Assembly (NCBI GenBank): GCA_020832375.1 | Contig: JAFIEW010000011.1 | Coordinates: 1-53,168, forward strand | Source of the DNA: Cyclobacteriaceae bacterium | Lineage (GTDB): Bacteria > Bacteroidota > Bacteroidia > Cytophagales > Cyclobacteriaceae | DNA length: 53,168 nucleotides | Reading direction: 5' to 3' | In this document: one piece after another, positions 38,637-46,209 of the stretch | How positions within the stretch are numbered: the first letter of the stretch is position 1 | How the letters are laid out: every line of letters starts with the position of its first letter | Program-made: the position numbers and the translations under genes | The notes under the pieces: model-generated | The model's database searches: none | The model's input: the letters and a program-made list of their open reading frames with translations, nothing else | What the model was told of the DNA's origin: nothing

Positions 38637-38711
38637 CGGGGTATAGCGCAGCCCGGTTAGCGCGTTCGTCTGGGGGGCGAGAGGTCGCTGGTTCGAATCC
38701 AGTTACCCCGA
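38637..38711 (+). tRNA. tRNA-Pro (anticodon GGG)
   Basis: Acceptor arms CGGGGTA (38637-38643) and TACCCCG (38704-38710), D-arm around GCGCAGCCCGGTTAGCGC, anticodon loop C-T-G-G-G-G-G, T-arm CTGG-TTCGAAT-CCAG. The anticodon reads GGG (Pro). The anticodon stem relies on two G-T pairs. CCA is not encoded. It ends 44 bp before its terminator hairpin. Confidence 0.95.
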
Positions 38712-38754
38712 CAAACTTTTTCATCAAATTAACATTTAAGTTAAAACTCGGAAA

Positions 38755-38781: not shown

Positions 38782-39000
38782 ATGGTAGGACAGCCATACG
38801 AAAAGCCGATCCAACTACATGAATGGGTCTTACTAAAATATGCCAAGCAAGGTCAGACCATTATAGACACCCATTTTGGAAGTGGCTCAATCGCACTGGC
38901 AGTGGACAAAGTCAATAACTTAGACAAAATGAACCAACACCTCACAGCCTTGGAAATAGACCCATACTACTATCAAAAATCCATCAACCGCCTCCCCGCT
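38782..39000 (+). pseudogene. C-terminal remnant of an N6-adenine/N4-cytosine DNA methyltransferase
   Basis: The frame starts at the base after the tRNA-Pro terminator. K-P-I-Q-L-H-E-W-V-L-L-K-Y-A is a typical C-terminal segment of phage or mobile-element site-specific methylases, and I-I-D-T-H-F-G-S-G-S is the SAM-binding motif I, followed by A-L-E-I-D-P-Y-Y-Y. The catalytic [D/N]-P-P-Y part is absent. Similarity stops where repeat A begins (38996); the frame runs on to 39063 but that tail looks noncoding. No promoter. I read it as a fossil of an element once integrated next to the tRNA gene. Confidence 0.75.
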
Positions 39001-39172
39001 AGCGCACGCGTGTCGCGTGTGCTAATACTACTGTTCAAAAGTTTCTCTTTTTGCGTGGAATGAAAACGCATTCTACCTTGGCTCTCCCTATTAATCATCT
39101 TGTCATCACCCCGCCTTCCAAACGCCCTCCCGCAATCCTGCCTAATGCTGTTTGCATCTACCTTCATACACT
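38996..39172 (+). repeat. Repeat A, copy 1
   Basis: About 177 bp repeated in the same orientation at 43289-43478 (190 bp, with a small insertion). Shared blocks include CTAGCGCACG, CGCGTGTGCTAATACTACT, GTGGAATGA and CTTGTCATCACCCCGCCTTC. A hairpin AGCGCACGCG-TGT-CGCGTGTGCT begins it at 39001. The two copies flank the GC-rich segment and the peptide cluster. Confidence 0.8.
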
Positions 39173-40193
39173 CACATCAACCAACGGGGTTAGCGGTGCG
39201 TCGGAATGCCGTGCTGAGCAAAAAACACGCCAGCCCAGCCGCCCTTTTTAAAATCGTTTTATTATCCTATGGCTTTTAAAAAAGACGGCTGCCCTTGCCA
39301 TAAGCCTGATCCCCAACCCTCATGCCATTCCTAATCAGGCATTAAGGCAAGGGTAATGAGGCTGTCATGCTTTTTGCTTTCAGCTACGTCATCCGCCGCG
39401 GCAGCTGTCTCCGTTCTTATGGTCGCCTTTTTCTGCTCCCCTAATGCCACGCTAAAAAGGCCACAAACGCTCGGTCGCTGCCAGTGTTTGGGCTCGCCCG
39501 CATCCCCGGCACCGCTTCGGTTTGTCACGGTTTTTGCCTTTCCCTGCCCGCATTCCCGCCCATCGCAAAAAACCGCGCCAAACCTACTGGCAAATCCAAG
39601 CTTCGCTACGCTACGCTTTCCTTTTTGCCAGAGCGGTGCCGGGACTCGCGGGGGCTCGCGCGCGCAGCTGCAATCCACTTCCCAATGCCTCCCCGCAAAG
39701 CCCGTTCATTGCAGCTTTTCCCCTCCCGCCGCTGAAGGCTCTTAACCCCGTCCCCCTCAATCCTCGCTCCCTGATGGAGTAGGAAGGCTTACTTTCTCCA
39801 AATACTATCCTCATTAATTCAACACCCAAACCATCCCTCAACCCCCACCCACCACCCTTCGGTGGTGCCGGGTGCTGTTTTGATTGTAAATTTACTCTCT
39901 GAGTGGATATTTAAGAATAGATAAAAAGTTAATAAAATAATAACAAAGTGGTTTTTTAAATAGCGAATGTTATTTTATGACTTTTAATATGATTATCATC
40001 ATAATGTGAAAAATTTTATCGTAATTAATCGATAATAAATTTGGTTATATGAAATGGGTAAGTTAAAGCGTTTAAATATTTTGATAGGCGCCTGTCGAAA
40101 AATTTGAATATTTGGTCGACCATTTTTATGTATTGTTTTCAGCTTAGTCGAGTGACTAGGTTGATGAATATTAATCTTTTAAATTTTAATGAA
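39173..40193. other. GC-rich segment without a convincing gene
   Basis: About 1 kb. From roughly 39370 to 39780 base composition is clearly higher in GC than anywhere else nearby, and several frames on both strands are open at once, which is usual for GC-rich noncoding DNA. Inverted repeat CCCGGCACCGCT (39505-39516) and AGCGGTGCCGGG (39632-39643) could fold a ~139-nt structure. From about 39890 it turns sharply AT-rich up to the peptide gene. No start, signal or domain supports a protein. Confidence 0.5.
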
Positions 40194-40403
40194 ATGAAGC
40201 ATTTAGGAAAAATTTTAGCAACCGCAACTTTAGGTTTTTTTTGTTTTTTTGCAACAACAAGTTTAACTAGTGCAGCCTCAAATGATGCTGAAACAATTGA
40301 TGGAAATAATGCCCGAGTATTTAGCGGGGAACAGTGTTCTGGTTCAGGAGGTAATTGTTTAGATACAGTAGTAGTTAAACCTAAGTGGTGGCAAATATTT
40401 TAG
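40194..40403 (+). CDS. Secreted two-cysteine peptide, unknown family
   Basis: 69 aa from the ATG at 40194 (an upstream in-frame ATG at 40164 is possible). A signal peptide spans about 1-28 (G-K-I-L-A-T-A-T-L-G-F-F-C-F-F, ending T-S-A-A). The mature part of ~40 residues is acidic then neutral, with C48 and C55 (C-x6-C), G-S-G-G between them, and a terminal K-P-K-W-W-Q-I-F. The build recalls NVEALA-type exported peptides of Bacteroidota, but the name motif is absent. An intrinsic terminator follows within 22 bp, so it is probably made in excess over the next three genes. Confidence 0.65.
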   Translation: MKHLGKILATATLGFFCFFATTSLTSAASNDAETIDGNNARVFSGEQCSGSGGNCLDTVVVKPKWWQIF

Positions 40404-40424
40404 AAATAAATCTGTTCAACAATA

Positions 40425-40453
40425 CCTCTAGAGTAGCTCTAGGGGCATTTTTT
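40425..40453 (+). terminator. Terminator between the peptide gene and the lipoprotein gene
   Basis: CCTCTAGAG, loop TAG, CTCTAGGGG forms a 9-bp stem (one G-T pair), then CA and six T. Another small hairpin (CCTCT-CGC-AGAGG, 40532-40544) lies before the next start. Confidence 0.8.
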
Positions 40454-40589
40454 ATGTAATTATGAAATCCCCATGATGGCAGTGAATAGTGGGGGGGCTT
40501 GTAATTAAAACGTTTAAAAAATAAAAGAAGCCCTCTCGCAGAGGTATGACAAAATACTAAAATCAATATTTTGTAAAATTTTAAAATAT

Positions 40590-41759
40590 ATGAAAATATT
40601 AAAATACCCCCTTTTCCTTTCAGTAATCTTGCTTGTAGGTTGTACAGAATATAGTGAGCATGTTCCTGACTCTAAATTTAAATTGGTTCATCATTCGGAA
40701 TTTGAGTTCCCTCTGAACGATAGCACTGACTATCAGTCGTTTTATGTAGATTTGGTTAATATAGGTGAAGATGAACAGCGGTTAGTCTTTTTAGGTAAAA
40801 ACAATACTCTGTATTTTTTTGATTTGAAATCAAAAGAGGTGACTAAATCCATAAAAGTTATAGAGGATGGCCCAACTCCACTACGAAAGTTATGGGGCTT
40901 GTATTTTCATACTATGGATAGTATTTATGTAGTTGCTGCATCCTCTTATCGCGTGGGCTTAATTGATAGAAAGGGTGAAGTATTGAGAACTTATAATTTG
41001 CTAAAAAGTGATTCGTGGAACGAAAATACGGGTTTGATCTATGCAAATTCTACCAGTCAACCTATTCTTTCTGAAGATCAACTTTACTTTACAGTTTTCC
41101 CGGATAGAAACCCTAACGAAAAATTTTTATTTGAAGCGCATACAGCCTCTCGATTGAATTTAACTAATGAAACTTACGACTATTTTTCCAATTATCCATC
41201 TTCAATGAGGGACGCTGCATGGGGCGTACATGCAGCACGCCCATACTCCACTTTTAATGAAAGTACAAAAAATATCATTTTTTCCTTTGCTAAGTCGGAT
41301 AGTCTCTATTGTTACCATTTAGAGACTGAAGAAACAAAAGCCATATATGCAGGGACACATGCTGAAAATAAAAATATAAATACCCCCAAAAAAAATCCCT
41401 CAAATGATGTCATGTTTCATTATGCAGTAAATCATACGTCTTATGGGCCAGTTATTTATGATAAATTCAGAAGTATTTACTATCGAATTGTTTATCATCC
41501 TTTAAAAAATATGGAAGGTATAAATCCTACTGATGTCACCTATTATGATTATTTAAAGCGGCCCTTTTCGATCATCACATTTGACCAAGAGTTTAATTTT
41601 TTAGGTGAGACTTATTTTGATGGAAAATTATATTTTACTAACAATTATTTTGTTTCAGAGGATGGATTATGCCTTTCAAAAAGCAATCCAAACAATGAGT
41701 CCCAAAGTGAAGATTTACTTAGTTTTGATTGTTTTCAATTGGCAGAAATCGATGAGTAA
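40590..41759 (+). CDS. DUF4221-type lipoprotein, beta-propeller-like
   Basis: 389 aa. Lipoprotein signal with lipobox L-V-G-C (C18). The mature part has repeated strands of the D-x-K-S/G-K-E-V-x-x-S-I kind (F-D-L-K-S-K-E-V-T-K-S-I, L-I-D-R-K-G-E-V-L-R-T-Y) as in six-bladed TolB-like propellers, and overall resembles DUF4221, a Bacteroidota lipoprotein family of unknown function. It overlaps the next start by 8 bp (ATGAGTAA). AT-rich. Role inferred only from context: an envelope binding scaffold, perhaps for the peptide. Confidence 0.75.
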   Translation: MKILKYPLFLSVILLVGCTEYSEHVPDSKFKLVHHSEFEFPLNDSTDYQSFYVDLVNIGEDEQRLVFLGKNNTLYFFDLKSKEVTKSIKVIEDGPTPLRKLWGLYFHTMDSIYVVAASSYRVGLIDRKGEVLRTYNLLKSDSWNENTGLIYANSTSQPILSEDQLYFTVFPDRNPNEKFLFEAHTASRLNLTNETYDYFSNYPSSMRDAAWGVHAARPYSTFNESTKNIIFSFAKSDSLYCYHLETEETKAIYAGTHAENKNINTPKKNPSNDVMFHYAVNHTSYGPVIYDKFRSIYYRIVYHPLKNMEGINPTDVTYYDYLKRPFSIITFDQEFNFLGETYFDGKLYFTNNYFVSEDGLCLSKSNPNNESQSEDLLSFDCFQLAEIDE

Positions 41760-42171
41760 GTATATATCAATTTTAGTACTCACTATTTTTTGTGTTGGCT
41801 GTAATTCTACAAATAGTGATGATCAATTAAAAGATGTGCTGCATAAAGTAGGTATGGAGCAGAGCGATCACTTAGACGCTGTAATTTTAATCCCTGATTT
41901 CAGCTGTCAATCATGCCTTCAAGAACAAGTTTCGGCCATAAAAAAGAAGGTTGCTAAGGAGAAATGTTTATTTCTTATTGTTACTAAGTCCAATAAAGGT
42001 TTTCTTTCGCTAAAAGACGACTTGCAATTACACGATTTTCAAGTGATACAAGACAAGCAACTGCTTGCAATTGATAGTGGTTTAATTGCAAATGATCTTA
42101 AGGTGTTTATAAGAAACAAGGGGCAATGGATTGATGATACTGATAACATGATTTTCTCTAGCCATGATTAA
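41752..42171 (+). CDS. Thioredoxin-like lipoprotein with CxxC
   Basis: 139 aa from the ATG that overlaps the upstream stop; the frame also extends upstream inside the propeller gene, but M-S-K-Y-I-S-I-L-V-L begins a lipoprotein signal (C-V-G-C, C17). After it comes a thioredoxin-like core: a strand D-A-V-I-L-I-P-D, then S-C-Q-S-C (C52, C55) at the start of a helix, and a second strand C-L-F-L-I-V. It lacks the usual cis-proline segment in a clear form. A likely thiol-disulfide enzyme of the periplasm; the cysteine pair of the secreted peptide is a possible substrate. Ends 8 bp inside the kinase gene. Confidence 0.7.
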   Translation: MSKYISILVLTIFCVGCNSTNSDDQLKDVLHKVGMEQSDHLDAVILIPDFSCQSCLQEQVSAIKKKVAKEKCLFLIVTKSNKGFLSLKDDLQLHDFQVIQDKQLLAIDSGLIANDLKVFIRNKGQWIDDTDNMIFSSHD

Positions 42172-42907
42172 TATCAAGCGTTTTTTGTCCGGTAGTAAAA
42201 ACACAGCAAAGGCTAAGTTATACCCGAAGCAGGTAATTATTCCAAAATCACAGTTTGGTGAATACATCGAGAGTATGTCTCAGTTCATTCAGCACGATCA
42301 AGAGAATATTATTCAATTTATTAAAGTAGATGTAAATGGCTTTAAAGAAAGTAGTTATACTTGTTGCGAGTGGATGGAATATTGTGAGTCAGGAACTTTA
42401 ATTGAACAACTTAAAAAAGCCAAAACTCAGGATAAGCTGATTAATTTGCTATGGCAATTCTTGAATGGAATACAATCTTTACATGAAATGGGTTACATTC
42501 ACAGAGATATCAAGTTGACGAATGCTTTGGTTACTACTAAAGATGGCGCTGAGGTTGTTAAGGTTTCTGATTTTGTTCTGCTCCCCCATCATGACTATGA
42601 AGTGATGACCACCCCGGAATTTTTAGCTCCCGAAGTTATGCAGGATAGCGACTACTCGGTTCAATCTGATATTTGGTCCTTAGGCGTTAGTTTCTATGAG
42701 TTATTTTCGGCGGAGTATCCATTCGGAAATCGCTTAGACGGATACACACCACGCGATATCAAGAAAAATACGCTAGAACTTGTCCCTTCAGGTTTTAATA
42801 AACTCCCACAGCTTATGCAAAAGATAGTAAAGCAATGCCTGAATAAAGACCCTGCACAACGACCCGGAAGTGTACTTCAAATAATGGATGTTTTCAAAAA
42901 GGTTTAA
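42164..42907 (+). CDS. Small Hanks-type Ser/Thr protein kinase, atypical N-lobe
   Basis: 247 aa, cytoplasmic, no membrane helix. The C-lobe is complete: H-R-D-I-K-L-T-N (113-120; D115, K117, N120), the metal-binding D136 in S-D-F-V (G of DFG replaced by V), A-P-E (155-157), D-I-W-S-L-G (169-174) and the late R233. The N-lobe is short: no glycine-rich loop is visible, and the ATP-anchoring lysine is uncertain. It overlaps the thioredoxin-like gene by 8 bp, so it is made with the two lipoproteins. Could be active with an altered nucleotide site or a pseudokinase. Confidence 0.85.
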   Translation: MINIKRFLSGSKNTAKAKLYPKQVIIPKSQFGEYIESMSQFIQHDQENIIQFIKVDVNGFKESSYTCCEWMEYCESGTLIEQLKKAKTQDKLINLLWQFLNGIQSLHEMGYIHRDIKLTNALVTTKDGAEVVKVSDFVLLPHHDYEVMTTPEFLAPEVMQDSDYSVQSDIWSLGVSFYELFSAEYPFGNRLDGYTPRDIKKNTLELVPSGFNKLPQLMQKIVKQCLNKDPAQRPGSVLQIMDVFKKV

Positions 42908-43288
42908 TTTAGACCTCAATTGTTAAAAATGTAGCTCTAATAGATTATAACTACAATTTCATTTGATTCCATAAAATATGAACCTTTTGGATTTTTCACT
43001 TTTTTGAGGTAACCATTAAGTAATGAAGGGGCATTAAGTGTGTGTTCCGAGATATGATTACCGAGTTGTTTTAGATAAAGTAGCTCATATAACATCTCAA
43101 TTGCTAAATGTGAATTAGGAATGTCTGATCATCAAGTTCAAAAATAGATGGGCTGGCATCATCATTATTCGTAGGTAATCATCGCCACTAGACTAAGTCA
43201 TTTTGATCGCTGCCGCAAAGATAGCCCGGTCGAATTTTTCAAAAGACAAGGGTATACAAGCGCTTCGCGCCCTTGCTTTTGAAATTCG
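42908..43288. other. Gap with a decayed minus-strand coding fragment and a hairpin
   Basis: On the minus strand 42937-43128 is open and protein-like (H-L-A-I-E-M-L-Y-E-L-L-Y-L-K-Q-L-G-N, then N-G-Y-L-K-K-V-K-N-P-K-G-S-Y-F). One extra base near 43119 would join it to S-P-S-I-F-E-L-D-D-Q-T-F just upstream, so it is a frameshifted remnant of an unrecognised gene. A TATCTTTG box on the minus strand lies at 43215-43222. A long hairpin, GAATTTTTCAAAAGACAAGG (from 43232) against CCCTTGCTTTTGAAATTC (43270-43287), abuts repeat A. Confidence 0.45.
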
Positions 43289-43478
43289 CCGCTAGCGCAC
43301 GACTGTCGCGTGTGCTAATACTACTATTCAAAAGCCCCCCCTTTATCTTGCTTCTCTTTTTCTGTGGAATGAGATCGCATTCTACCTTAGCTTTCCCAAT
43401 TAACCTTCTTGTCATCACCCCGCCTTCATAACGCCTTCCCGCAATCCTGAACCATGCTGTTTACATCTACCTTCACAC
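43289..43478 (+). repeat. Repeat A, copy 2
   Basis: Direct repeat of 38996-39172, same orientation, with an extra C/T-rich stretch (43333-43355). It marks the right end of the suspected island. Confidence 0.8.
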
Positions 43479-43697
43479 AATTAACGCTTACCAATAAAGC
43501 TGACCAATCTCTTGAGATGGAAACAATCCATAAGCCTACTTAATTGAAATTGATCAAAAAAAAAAGAAGAATAGCATACTATATTATCCGCTCTAAAAGC
43601 ATTACTTTTTCAACTAACTTTATCAATTGATTACCAGAACAGCCGACTTTAAATGAATGCTTCATGAATTTTCATTCCACATCAACATAAAATCCTC

Positions 43698-44342
43698 ATG
43701 CTAAATTTCACCAGCCTACCAAAAGCCGCCTATCGAATTATATTAATAGCTGCCTTTTTTTTACTGACTCTGATTGCAGCTACGCCAACTAGATGCCTAG
43801 CCCAAGAAAGTAGCGAGCAAGACTATCTCATCCTTACTAGTGGTGAAAGGATAGTTGGAGAGATTAGTCATATCAATGAAAGGGGTGTGAGTCCTAAGTA
43901 TTACAGAAAAATCAGGCTAACGGATGATCAAGGTAAAAGGAGAAAATTCAGAAGGAAGCATGTCGTCGCATTTCAGGCAGCGGGTAGTACTTATGAAAGC
44001 TTTCATTTGACGCGCAAAAGCTCAAGACTACTGGATGAGCAATATGCCATTGATAAAAGAGGCACCCAACACTTCCTTAAAGTAAGGACAAAGGGAAGCC
44101 TCAGTCATTATCAGATGGAATGGTGGGAGCAGGGATCATCTACCACCATGACGATGGACCTGCTAAAAAAAGAAGGAGATGATTTTTTAATCAGGGCGAC
44201 GCAAGGGCTTTTAGGAGTGAAGCGAAGAACACTGACCTCTTATTTCTCTGACTGTCCTCAATTGGCGGCACAGATAGAAAATAGAAATTTAAAAGAATTG
44301 AGTGAGATAGTAGCTGCCTACAATGATTCTTGTGGTTTTTAG
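43698..44342 (+). CDS. Exported hypothetical protein
   Basis: 214 aa. N-terminal signal peptide of about 36 residues (I-I-L-I-A-A-F-F-L-L-T-L-I-A-A-T, cut near C-L-A-Q). The mature region opens with D-Y-L-I-L-T-S-G-E-R-I-V-G-E-I, a short-beta opening seen in many Bacteroidota periplasmic proteins that read the product of an envelope sensor, but I cannot name the family. Basic middle part (K-R-R-K-F-R-R-K), two cysteines near the end. Probably periplasmic or outer-membrane associated. Confidence 0.65.
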   Translation: MLNFTSLPKAAYRIILIAAFFLLTLIAATPTRCLAQESSEQDYLILTSGERIVGEISHINERGVSPKYYRKIRLTDDQGKRRKFRRKHVVAFQAAGSTYESFHLTRKSSRLLDEQYAIDKRGTQHFLKVRTKGSLSHYQMEWWEQGSSTTMTMDLLKKEGDDFLIRATQGLLGVKRRTLTSYFSDCPQLAAQIENRNLKELSEIVAAYNDSCGF

Positions 44343-44658
44343 TTGAGTGATAGCCCATGCCAATCCTAAAATCAAGCAGCGTGAATTGATGAACAATAGC
44401 CCATCAATTATACTCATCCCTCGCAAAATCCACTCGATAAACATAGATGACAAGGTAGTATGCTTCCCGTTACCTTTCTTCACCTTTGGAACTCATTCAC
44501 TCCCTTCATCAACATAACGGCCTGCTAATAATTAATTGGCTCTTTCTAGCTGACATCTTATTTGCAAAACAATCCACCTGTATATTTCTGCTTAGAAAAA
44601 TAAACTTATGTCTATTTTTGTGGTTTGTTAATAAAATTCCATGTAAACACTGTATTTT

Positions 44659-46209
44659 ATGCTAACAACAAAGAAAATTCTTCAGAAGGCAGAATGGGGC
44701 AGCCTACTCAGTCAGATGAAAGCCTTCGTGCCCGAAACATTTGAAAAAGACTTCGAACCTCTCAACCTTATGATGGGTTCTTGGCAAAATGCCGGCAATA
44801 AAAAGCCTTTCAACTCTAGCATCGATGGTTCATTGCTTGGGCACTATCCCAATATCGATCTGGAAACCTGTAAAACAGCCGTTGCTCATGCAAGCCAAGA
44901 AGCGAAAGAGTGGGCAAATACCGACCTGCCAACACGTAAAGCTGCTGTACAACAAACGATCGATGATCTCGAGAAGCATAAAGAACTCATTGCCTACTTA
45001 TTGGTGTGGGAAATAGGTAAGCCATTCGACCAGTCGCTCGATAGTGTCGAAAGATGCATCATGGGCGTGCAGTGGTATATTGACAATATCGAAGAAATGC
45101 TCGGCAGCCGTGCTCCCATAGGTGTGGTATCCAATATTGCCTCGTGGAATTATCCCATCTCGGTGCTTGTGCATGCCTGCCTCGTACAAATGCTTTGTGG
45201 CAATGCAGCTGTAGCCAAGACCCCATCTGATGGCGGCCTTTTTTCGCTCACTATCAGCTTTGCCTTTGCCAAGCGCAATGGACTCCCCATCACCTTAGTA
45301 AGTGGGTCGGGTGGCGCACTCAGTGATGCCCTTGTGAAAAACGAACACGTAGACTGCCTCGCTTATGTAGGCGGCAAAAGCAACGGCCGAAATATCGTAG
45401 CCAGCTTGGTTGACAAAAATAAAAGATATATGCTCGAAATGGAGGGGGTCAATGCCTATGGGGTATGGAACTATTCCGATTGGGATCACCTCGCCAAGCA
45501 GTTAAAGTCGGGCTTCAAATATGGCAAGCAGCGCTGCACGGCCTATGTCCGCTTTGTAGTACAAAGAACGCTATTCCCTGAGTTTTTAGAAATGTACCTC
45601 AGCATGCTCAAGTCCATCAGTTATGGGCATCCGCTACTTGTGGAAAATGGCAGCGATGAGCCACCGAAAGTGGACTTCGGGCCCTTGATCAACAGCAAGA
45701 AAGCAGAGGAGGTAGATGCGATGTATCATGATGCCATCAGCAAGGGGGCAGTATGTCTGTATCGCGGCACCATCGACGCGGCCAACTTTCTTCCCAATCA
45801 AGACATAAGCGCCTATTATCCGCCGAGTGCCCTGCTCAACGTTCCCAAAAATGCGCTGCTTTATCACAATGAGCCTTTCGGGCCTTTGGACAGCATCATT
45901 TTGGTTGACACCGAAGAGGAGCTGATCAGCGAAATGAACATTTCCAACGGCAGCTTGGTATCTTCCATCGCATGCGACGACCTTGACGAGGCCAAAAGAA
46001 TCGCTTCACAATTGAGAGGCTATAAAGTAGGCATCAACAAATCCAGATCGCGTGGGGACAAGGAAGAGTCTTTTGGCGGCATCGGAGAGTCGTGGAAAGG
46101 ATGCTTTGTAGGTGGAAAATATCTCGTTGAGGCGGTCACCAAAGGTGAAGAAGGCGAGCGACTCATGGGTAACTTCAGCGATTATACTTTAGCACCCGCT
46201 ATCAGATAG
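44659..46209 (+). CDS. Aldehyde dehydrogenase family protein
   Basis: 516 aa, normal length. NAD(P)-dependent oxidation of an aldehyde to an acid: N164 in S-W-N-Y-P, general base E260 in L-E-M-E-G and nucleophile C293 in G-K-Q-R-C-T-A. The S-G-S-G-G-A loop near 215-220 binds the cofactor. The catalytic-site text differs from the usual L-E-L-G-G-K, so the subfamily is divergent. Substrate not predictable; no pathway genes adjacent. Own terminator. Confidence 0.9.
   Translation: MLTTKKILQKAEWGSLLSQMKAFVPETFEKDFEPLNLMMGSWQNAGNKKPFNSSIDGSLLGHYPNIDLETCKTAVAHASQEAKEWANTDLPTRKAAVQQTIDDLEKHKELIAYLLVWEIGKPFDQSLDSVERCIMGVQWYIDNIEEMLGSRAPIGVVSNIASWNYPISVLVHACLVQMLCGNAAVAKTPSDGGLFSLTISFAFAKRNGLPITLVSGSGGALSDALVKNEHVDCLAYVGGKSNGRNIVASLVDKNKRYMLEMEGVNAYGVWNYSDWDHLAKQLKSGFKYGKQRCTAYVRFVVQRTLFPEFLEMYLSMLKSISYGHPLLVENGSDEPPKVDFGPLINSKKAEEVDAMYHDAISKGAVCLYRGTIDAANFLPNQDISAYYPPSALLNVPKNALLYHNEPFGPLDSIILVDTEEELISEMNISNGSLVSSIACDDLDEAKRIASQLRGYKVGINKSRSRGDKEESFGGIGESWKGCFVGGKYLVEAVTKGEEGERLMGNFSDYTLAPAIR

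Follow-up and report, generated by a model that had tools for sequence, protein, structure and literature searches.

A small kinase that recurs beside a secreted cysteine peptide and two lipoproteins: what looks like an undescribed bacterial peptide system

Contig JAFIEW010000011.1 of a Cyclobacteriaceae bacterium (assembly GCA_020832375.1; genome G000 among those compared here) carries in series, on its forward strand, genes for a small secreted peptide, a lipoprotein of the DUF4221 family, a second lipoprotein with a CxxC motif, and a small protein kinase. Do these four genes form a system, and what could a cytoplasmic kinase have to do with a peptide that leaves the cell? We consider both questions for the window (that is, the whole stretch analyzed, positions 1 to 53,168 of the contig), in which an initial annotation made from the sequence alone had proposed a single, undescribed four-gene system. 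We find that the set recurs as a unit in other genomes, which gives it the look of a genuine, undescribed peptide system. The role of the kinase is the least secure of those assigned.

The peptide gene (P0001, positions 40194 to 40403) encodes 69 amino acids and is followed by genes for the DUF4221 lipoprotein, a predicted beta-propeller (P0002, 389 amino acids, 40590 to 41759), the CxxC lipoprotein, putatively thioredoxin-like (P0003, 139 amino acids, 41752 to 42171), and the kinase (P0004, 247 amino acids, 42164 to 42907). The components named at the outset, including a C-x6-C peptide and a C-Q-S-C lipoprotein, are therefore all present in a row, and the last three genes overlap exactly as described, by 8 bp each (41752-41759 and 42164-42171). 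The annotation had also placed a terminator after the peptide gene, and a terminator-like hairpin with a 9-bp stem and a T-run does lie at about 40425-40454 on the same strand, in the gap between the peptide and propeller genes. A site of this kind arises in 8% of shuffles of that gap. Among 37 peptide/propeller gaps, 13 contain one, versus 6.3 in shuffles; the site is not general, and we rejected it as a conserved element of the gap.

Whether the four genes belong together was judged from their recurrence around related kinases. A first search with the window kinase against 118 genomes of the family led to three others (G135, G067 and G129), whose best kinases adjoin a peptide gene and a DUF4221 lipoprotein gene. 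A profile made from five kinases and searched over 390 family genomes, with at most seven candidates scored per genome, gave 19 kinase frames of no more than 300 amino acids at E ≤ 1e-12. The 14 top frames (at least 83 bits) come from 11 genomes in six genera (G000, G067, G129, G135 with three, G328, G573 with two, G622, G663, G673, G674 and G714), and every one of them adjoins both a peptide gene and a DUF4221 gene. A CxxC gene is also adjoining, so that all four genes stand together, in 13 of these places. Eight of these 14 came to light only through the profile search and had no part in its profile. The other five short kinases (in G617, G635, G608, G002 and G492; 68 bits or less) have no such neighbors in the stretches examined. 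The claim of a single four-gene system thus stood, and neither of the outcomes that had been named as speaking against it (genes rarely adjacent elsewhere, or a peptide without homologues and translation) occurred.

The order of the genes varies. Peptide, propeller, CxxC protein and kinase follow one another on one strand in three of the 14 places (the window, G673 and G663), and in G622 and G714 the same one-strand order is interrupted by a gene for a TonB_C-like lipoprotein inserted before the kinase. Since the kinase is downstream in five places and divergent from the peptide gene in nine, a single inherited block does not explain the association. In one G135 cassette and at the second G573 place, genes that look by eye like transposases separate the kinase from the peptide. 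No added member was found among 72 genomes of the genus of G714 (four known members; all candidates scored) or among eight genomes of the genus of G129 (two known members). Likewise, 385 genomes of the phylum and 390 of the order, with at most seven candidates scored in each, gave no further kinase that scores like the group; the strongest others are long frames at 141 and 166 bits. This cap may have hidden a diverged member, and lower-scoring shorter frames such as that of G251 (296 amino acids, phylum search) lay outside the comparison. At locus L161 (G617, contig C9, 6972-9559), a 255-residue kinase and small helix-turn-helix-like frames adjoin a grasp-with-SPASM maturase of ribosomally synthesized and post-translationally modified peptides (RiPPs; TIGR04192, E 4.4e-101).

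The kinase matches PF00069 (E 4.7e-33), and four of its residues, D115, N120, D136 and P156 (the catalytic-loop Asp and Asn, the Mg-binding Asp, and the Pro of the APE region), are invariant in all 13 aligned kinases. These kinases are short, and Pfam assigned no further domain to the three that were tried. A known defence system was rejected as an explanation: PADLOC recognized no known anti-phage system in the set, and its matches were confined to the kinase (34 families, the best being mad6 at E 1.3e-42), with none for the peptide, propeller or CxxC protein. Against the NCBIfam model MAD6, the window kinase reaches 66 of 460 bits, which is under the cut-off.

The assignment of P0002 to DUF4221 (PF13970) is clear, at E 5.4e-29 and 102.2 bits versus a curated cut-off of 23.4. 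Its AlphaFold model, made from seven sequences, has a pLDDT of 70 and a pTM of 0.75, and the best Foldseek match is the DUF4221 structure 3s9j (E 1.2e-23, TM-score 0.72 on the query, 21% identity), so that a beta-propeller fold is supported by modeling. P0003 has a lipobox cysteine (Cys17) and the motif C52-Q-S-C55. All three of these cysteines are invariant in the 25 members picked for alignment, and the P0003 profile matches a thioredoxin oxidoreductase (PDB 8t4c, E 3.4e-4). Modeling failed to give a thioredoxin fold (pLDDT 50), and the suggested thioredoxin-like fold rests on sequence only.

The peptide has, by eye, a Sec-type hydrophobic N-terminus. From Cys48 onward (40335 to 40400), it reads C-x6-C-L-D-T-V-V-V, in which the second cysteine is Cys55 and the threonine is Thr58, and a lysine follows. 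Pfam gives no match to it at E values up to 1, and the NVEALA profile PF14055 does not match it either. Similar tails occur at the other close kinases: the pattern C-[LMF]-x(1,3)-T, with V, I, F or Y as the next residue, was defined after the kinase-linked peptides had been seen and fits all 13 distinct ones.

The remaining three genes also occur as a core without the kinase, and more widely. In 46 loci chosen for DUF4221 alone, we counted 63 propellers, of which 21 have a cysteine-peptide call upstream, 14 a CxxC gene downstream, and 11 both; for 295 control genes of the same loci, the corresponding numbers are 18 with a peptide call and one with a CxxC gene. The peptide calls come from a heuristic that also picks up false frames (for example, that of L022), and it missed the peptides of L154 and L155, which were taken from frame lists. 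With the window excluded, a close short kinase stands beside none of the 63 propellers, and hence beside none of the 14 that have a CxxC gene. A second set of 40 loci was drawn from 81 propeller-profile places in 64 picked family genomes. Of its 45 propellers, 17 have a peptide call, 12 a CxxC gene and 10 both, and a kinase is absent throughout; known kinase-linked places were left out of this set, so its lack of kinases is partly by choice. The first locus set leaves out three weak places of the DUF4221 search (in G345, G279 and G275). Beyond the order, CxxC cassettes occur at L083 (same class) and at L084, L085, L089 and L091 (same phylum only). The peptide-propeller-CxxC core without a kinase is thus wider in Bacteroidota. 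The window genome itself has at least six DUF4221 genes (six candidates were scored); apart from that of the window, they have a real-looking peptide call at L023, L099, L100 and L101 and a false-looking one at L022.

DUF4221 genes also adjoin an NVEALA peptide at L107 (PF14055, E 2.8e-14) and lie near a double-glycine peptide at L039 (TIGR04149, E 1.2e-6, above the cut-off), so the partner of DUF4221 seems to be an exported peptide. At L112 (G328, contig C20, 3450-16702), peptides that we class by eye as having double-glycine leaders, one of them below the TIGR04149 cut-off, lie with short C39 peptidase-like frames and DUF4221 propellers; this array is possibly a second type of cassette. Genes of the AcrB-type RND transporters were considered as dedicated exporters and dropped, remaining a lead only: they are present at six of 36 CxxC-cassette loci, at six of 61 DUF4221 loci without such a cassette, and at none of 20 other loci, and the same probe found none in the window. 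Those beside peptide cassettes are at L160, L229 (G663), L031, L109 and L115, and G663 also has repeated 5'-end fragments of one AcrB-type gene beside its cassettes. These genes and fragments could point to an exporter or to a hot spot of insertion.

Variation among paralogues bears on what each product may do. Locus L096 (G135, contig C1, 5465-17134) is a mosaic of four tandem cassettes, the fourth kinase being a 67-residue remnant. The kinases of this array are 91-100% identical, and the propellers of copies 1-3 are 97-100% identical over the last 80 residues and only 32-62% identical in windows of residues 160-280. Between G622 and G714, the first 22 residues of the peptides are identical and the cores have diverged; the kinases are 58% and the propellers 50% identical. 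In the paralogues compared, therefore, leaders and kinases are less variable than peptide cores and parts of the propellers. Near-identical kinases beside differing peptide cores and propeller middles in G135 fit a shared enzyme that acts on the peptide at least as well as they fit control of expression.

The initial annotation had suggested that the CxxC protein forms a disulfide in the peptide, that the propeller captures or exports the peptide, and that the kinase controls expression or response; these roles are plausible. The explanation that we favor, though tentatively and at somewhat less than even chance, is a secreted-peptide cassette whose lipoproteins would bind and oxidize the mature peptide and whose kinase would act on the precursor. 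The precursor would exit the cytoplasm by means of its predicted Sec-type signal. Outside the cell, judging from conserved adjacency and fold, the CxxC lipoprotein would form or repair a disulfide between the two peptide cysteines, and the DUF4221 propeller may be the cognate receptor, or the immunity partner, that binds the mature peptide. The small cytoplasmic kinase would come in earlier, acting on the precursor before export, most probably by phosphorylating the conserved threonine of the tail; this is the weakest step.

Several observations weigh against this secreted-peptide cassette, and many concern the kinase and its presumed target. The window kinase has no Gly-rich loop, its Pfam match beginning at profile position 54 of 263, in comparison with position 9 for the L160 kinase, which has the loop. 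By eye, most of the 13 aligned members likewise lack the loop and start near the third strand, and in several of them the HRD motif is H-S-D or H-G-D, so the kinase may be weak or a pseudokinase. The tail pattern is also found in five of 53 distinct kinase-less peptide calls (L031, L231, L251, L252 and L265), that is, calls beside a propeller with no kinase within 3.5 kb. The tail threonine is therefore not exclusive to kinase loci, and a strict link between the two was rejected. The near-identical L251 and L252, as well as L265, have a CLPTV tail within a complete peptide-propeller-CxxC cassette, and no such kinase was found in G655, the genome of L252. Related tails recognized by eye in six kinase-less peptides have threonine in three (L251/L252, L265 and L226) and Asp, Glu or Pro in the others (L229, L119 and G135 copy 4, the last with the kinase remnant); compared with 13 of 13, Fisher's test gives p = 0.02, or 0.03 with L031 added, and because these rows are related rather than independent, the comparison is only suggestive. 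In G663, moreover, the kinase directly precedes a further peptide-propeller-CxxC cassette whose peptide has no threonine tail. Other points concern the rest of the set. The CxxC gene is missing in G129, the G674 propeller is split over two frames, and the G328 peptide frame has no start. P0003, for which the structure model was unusable, lacks the Pro before the late strand that is found in many aligned CxxC relatives. By the heuristic calls, 42 of 63 DUF4221 genes have no peptide neighbor. Finally, G135 copies 2 and 3 share a peptide (78 of 79 residues) and yet differ in their propeller middles, which speaks against a strict pairing of peptide and propeller.

The surroundings of the set in the window raise the further question of whether it was acquired, as had been suggested. 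Direct repeats flank it on the forward strand: the left repeat (38993 to 39170, in parts of 49 and 128 nt) has its long partner at 43286 to 43479, with 92% identity in the 49-nt part and 86% in the 128-nt part. A tRNA-Pro gene (ggg; ARAGORN) at 38637 to 38712 on the same strand ends 281 bp before the left repeat, in what is possibly an integration neighborhood. The G+C content is 0.32-0.38 over 40000-42999. It rises to 0.50 at 39000-39999, most of which lies on the inner side of the left repeat, and beyond the right repeat, at 43500-44999, it stays at 0.37-0.42. Low G+C and flanking repeats are therefore present, but the borders of the AT-rich stretch and of the repeats do not coincide, and acquisition of the four genes is only partly supported. 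A 191-bp probe from the repeat found no further long copy in the window genome among the 40 of 94 candidates that were scored, and only five matches of 27-30 bp. Such pieces lie on contigs C29, C143 and C19, so part of the flanking repeat may be a dispersed element. Just beyond the right repeat (43698-44342), there is a gene for a protein of 214 amino acids that begins with a hydrophobic stretch and matches no family convincingly.

These flanks, together with the transposase-like genes that separate kinase and peptide at two of the 14 loci, are what one would expect if the genes were chance neighbors or had hitch-hiked in a mobile insert without a joint function. We regard this as highly improbable, given the recurrence across six genera in differing order and strand and the contrast between the 14 close kinases and the five other short ones. 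The readings that do give the genes a joint function (a bacteriocin, a regulatory kinase, and a link to TonB) overlap with one another. A bacteriocin with its immunity would have the peptide kill relatives, the propeller serve as immunity protein or receptor, and the kinase tailor or silence the peptide in its producer. Several features fit this idea: paralogues are repeated and in one case stand in tandem, leaders stay constant where cores vary, repeats surround the window set, and DUF4221 genes lie near double-glycine peptides, accompanied at L112 by frames that resemble C39 peptidases. We consider it possible but on the whole unlikely, for no exporter gene was seen adjoining the window set, one peptide is found with two propeller middles in G135, and no bacteriocin activity is known. 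The kinase could instead be a regulator, active or pseudokinase, that controls expression of a secreted signal or surface system or the cytoplasmic response to it. An optional regulator would be expected to be absent from most peptide-propeller-CxxC cassettes, as this kinase is, and both its divergent orientation in nine places and its near-invariance between G135 cassettes agree with such a role. We nevertheless judge it rather unlikely: the aligned kinases are short and have no recognized extra domain, no regulator gene was seen to recur with them, and three kinase copies and a remnant in one G135 array are awkward for a global regulator.

Alternatively, the L-D-T-V-V-V tail might mimic a TonB box, so that the peptide uses TonB for its uptake or export, or else interferes with it. 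TonB boxes are normally N-terminal, which counts against this. On a matrix made from 28 TonB-box regions of the window genome that were curated by eye (median score 15.4), the window tail scores 9.7 (shuffle p 0.004), and six of 13 kinase-linked peptides reach p < 0.05 with the match in the tail; among 45 control peptides, a set that excluded the motif by choice, the highest score is 2.5. Only a subset of the kinase-linked peptides fits, and the TonB box was rejected as a general feature of the tail: the tails of G129, G573 copy a and G135 read M-P-T-Y-C-C-V or L-P-T-F-C-C-V and have their best matrix match elsewhere, and the peptides of G573 copy b and G328 score no higher than the top controls. 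Six operons (L157, L158, L229, L251, L252 and L265) have an additional lipoprotein gene, or a fragment of one, after the CxxC gene. That of L229 (4396-4860) clearly encodes a TonB_C lipoprotein (PF03544, E 2.2e-20) and, of the four compared with Pfam, is alone above the cut-off, the matches of L158 (5677-6096) and L252 (4248-4655) being sub-threshold and L265 having none; beside the window set, no TonB_C gene was seen. A TonB-linked peptide thus appears quite improbable to us. Still more doubtful is a combined scheme in which a minimal, loop-less kinase would phosphorylate the tail threonine in the cytoplasm, after which the TonB-box-like tail would engage TonB or a TonB_C lipoprotein with the propeller as cognate partner; if it were true, Bacteroidota would have a new class of peptide signal or weapon, a kinase-licensed secreted disulfide peptide.

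How, then, does the set compare with what has been described? DUF4221, NVEAL and NVEALA are named in no paper of the literature searched, from which most subscription papers and all preprints were outside the scope, and the top-ranked matches of broader searches under the same limits included no description of the four-gene set. The component families are known, and their combination with a dedicated kinase appears to be undescribed within that literature. To our knowledge, a kinase tied to a Sec-exported peptide is unusual, and this tie makes phosphorylation of the precursor directly testable. A precedent for such a step is PadeK, which belongs to a different kinase family from the window kinase. 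In the paeninodin clusters, the residue that PadeK phosphorylates is the C-terminal Ser of the lasso precursor, and this site is retained where the kinase gene occurs (PMC9266682). By analogy, conservation of the tail residue would be the basis for supposing a paeninodin-like action on the window precursor: in each, a kinase of a peptide cluster is accompanied by a conserved C-terminal residue, in the window set a putative acceptor. The paeninodin clusters differ in that they make lasso peptides with B and C proteins, whereas the window set has a Sec-exported cysteine peptide with lipoproteins. The 3s9j protein (BVU_1028 of Bacteroides vulgatus) shares Pfam family and fold with P0002; it is known here from the title of the structure, which gives no function. 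The NVEALA peptide is likewise a small Sec-type cysteine peptide adjoining a DUF4221 propeller, at the single locus L107, where no kinase or CxxC gene was called; the window peptide differs in having no PF14055 match. The double-glycine RiPP precursors of TIGR04149 are also small cysteine peptides near DUF4221 (at L039 and, by eye, L112), although their leader type and presumed export route are different and no kinase was called at either locus. With three kinds of small exported peptide paired with it, DUF4221 acquires a testable role as a peptide partner.

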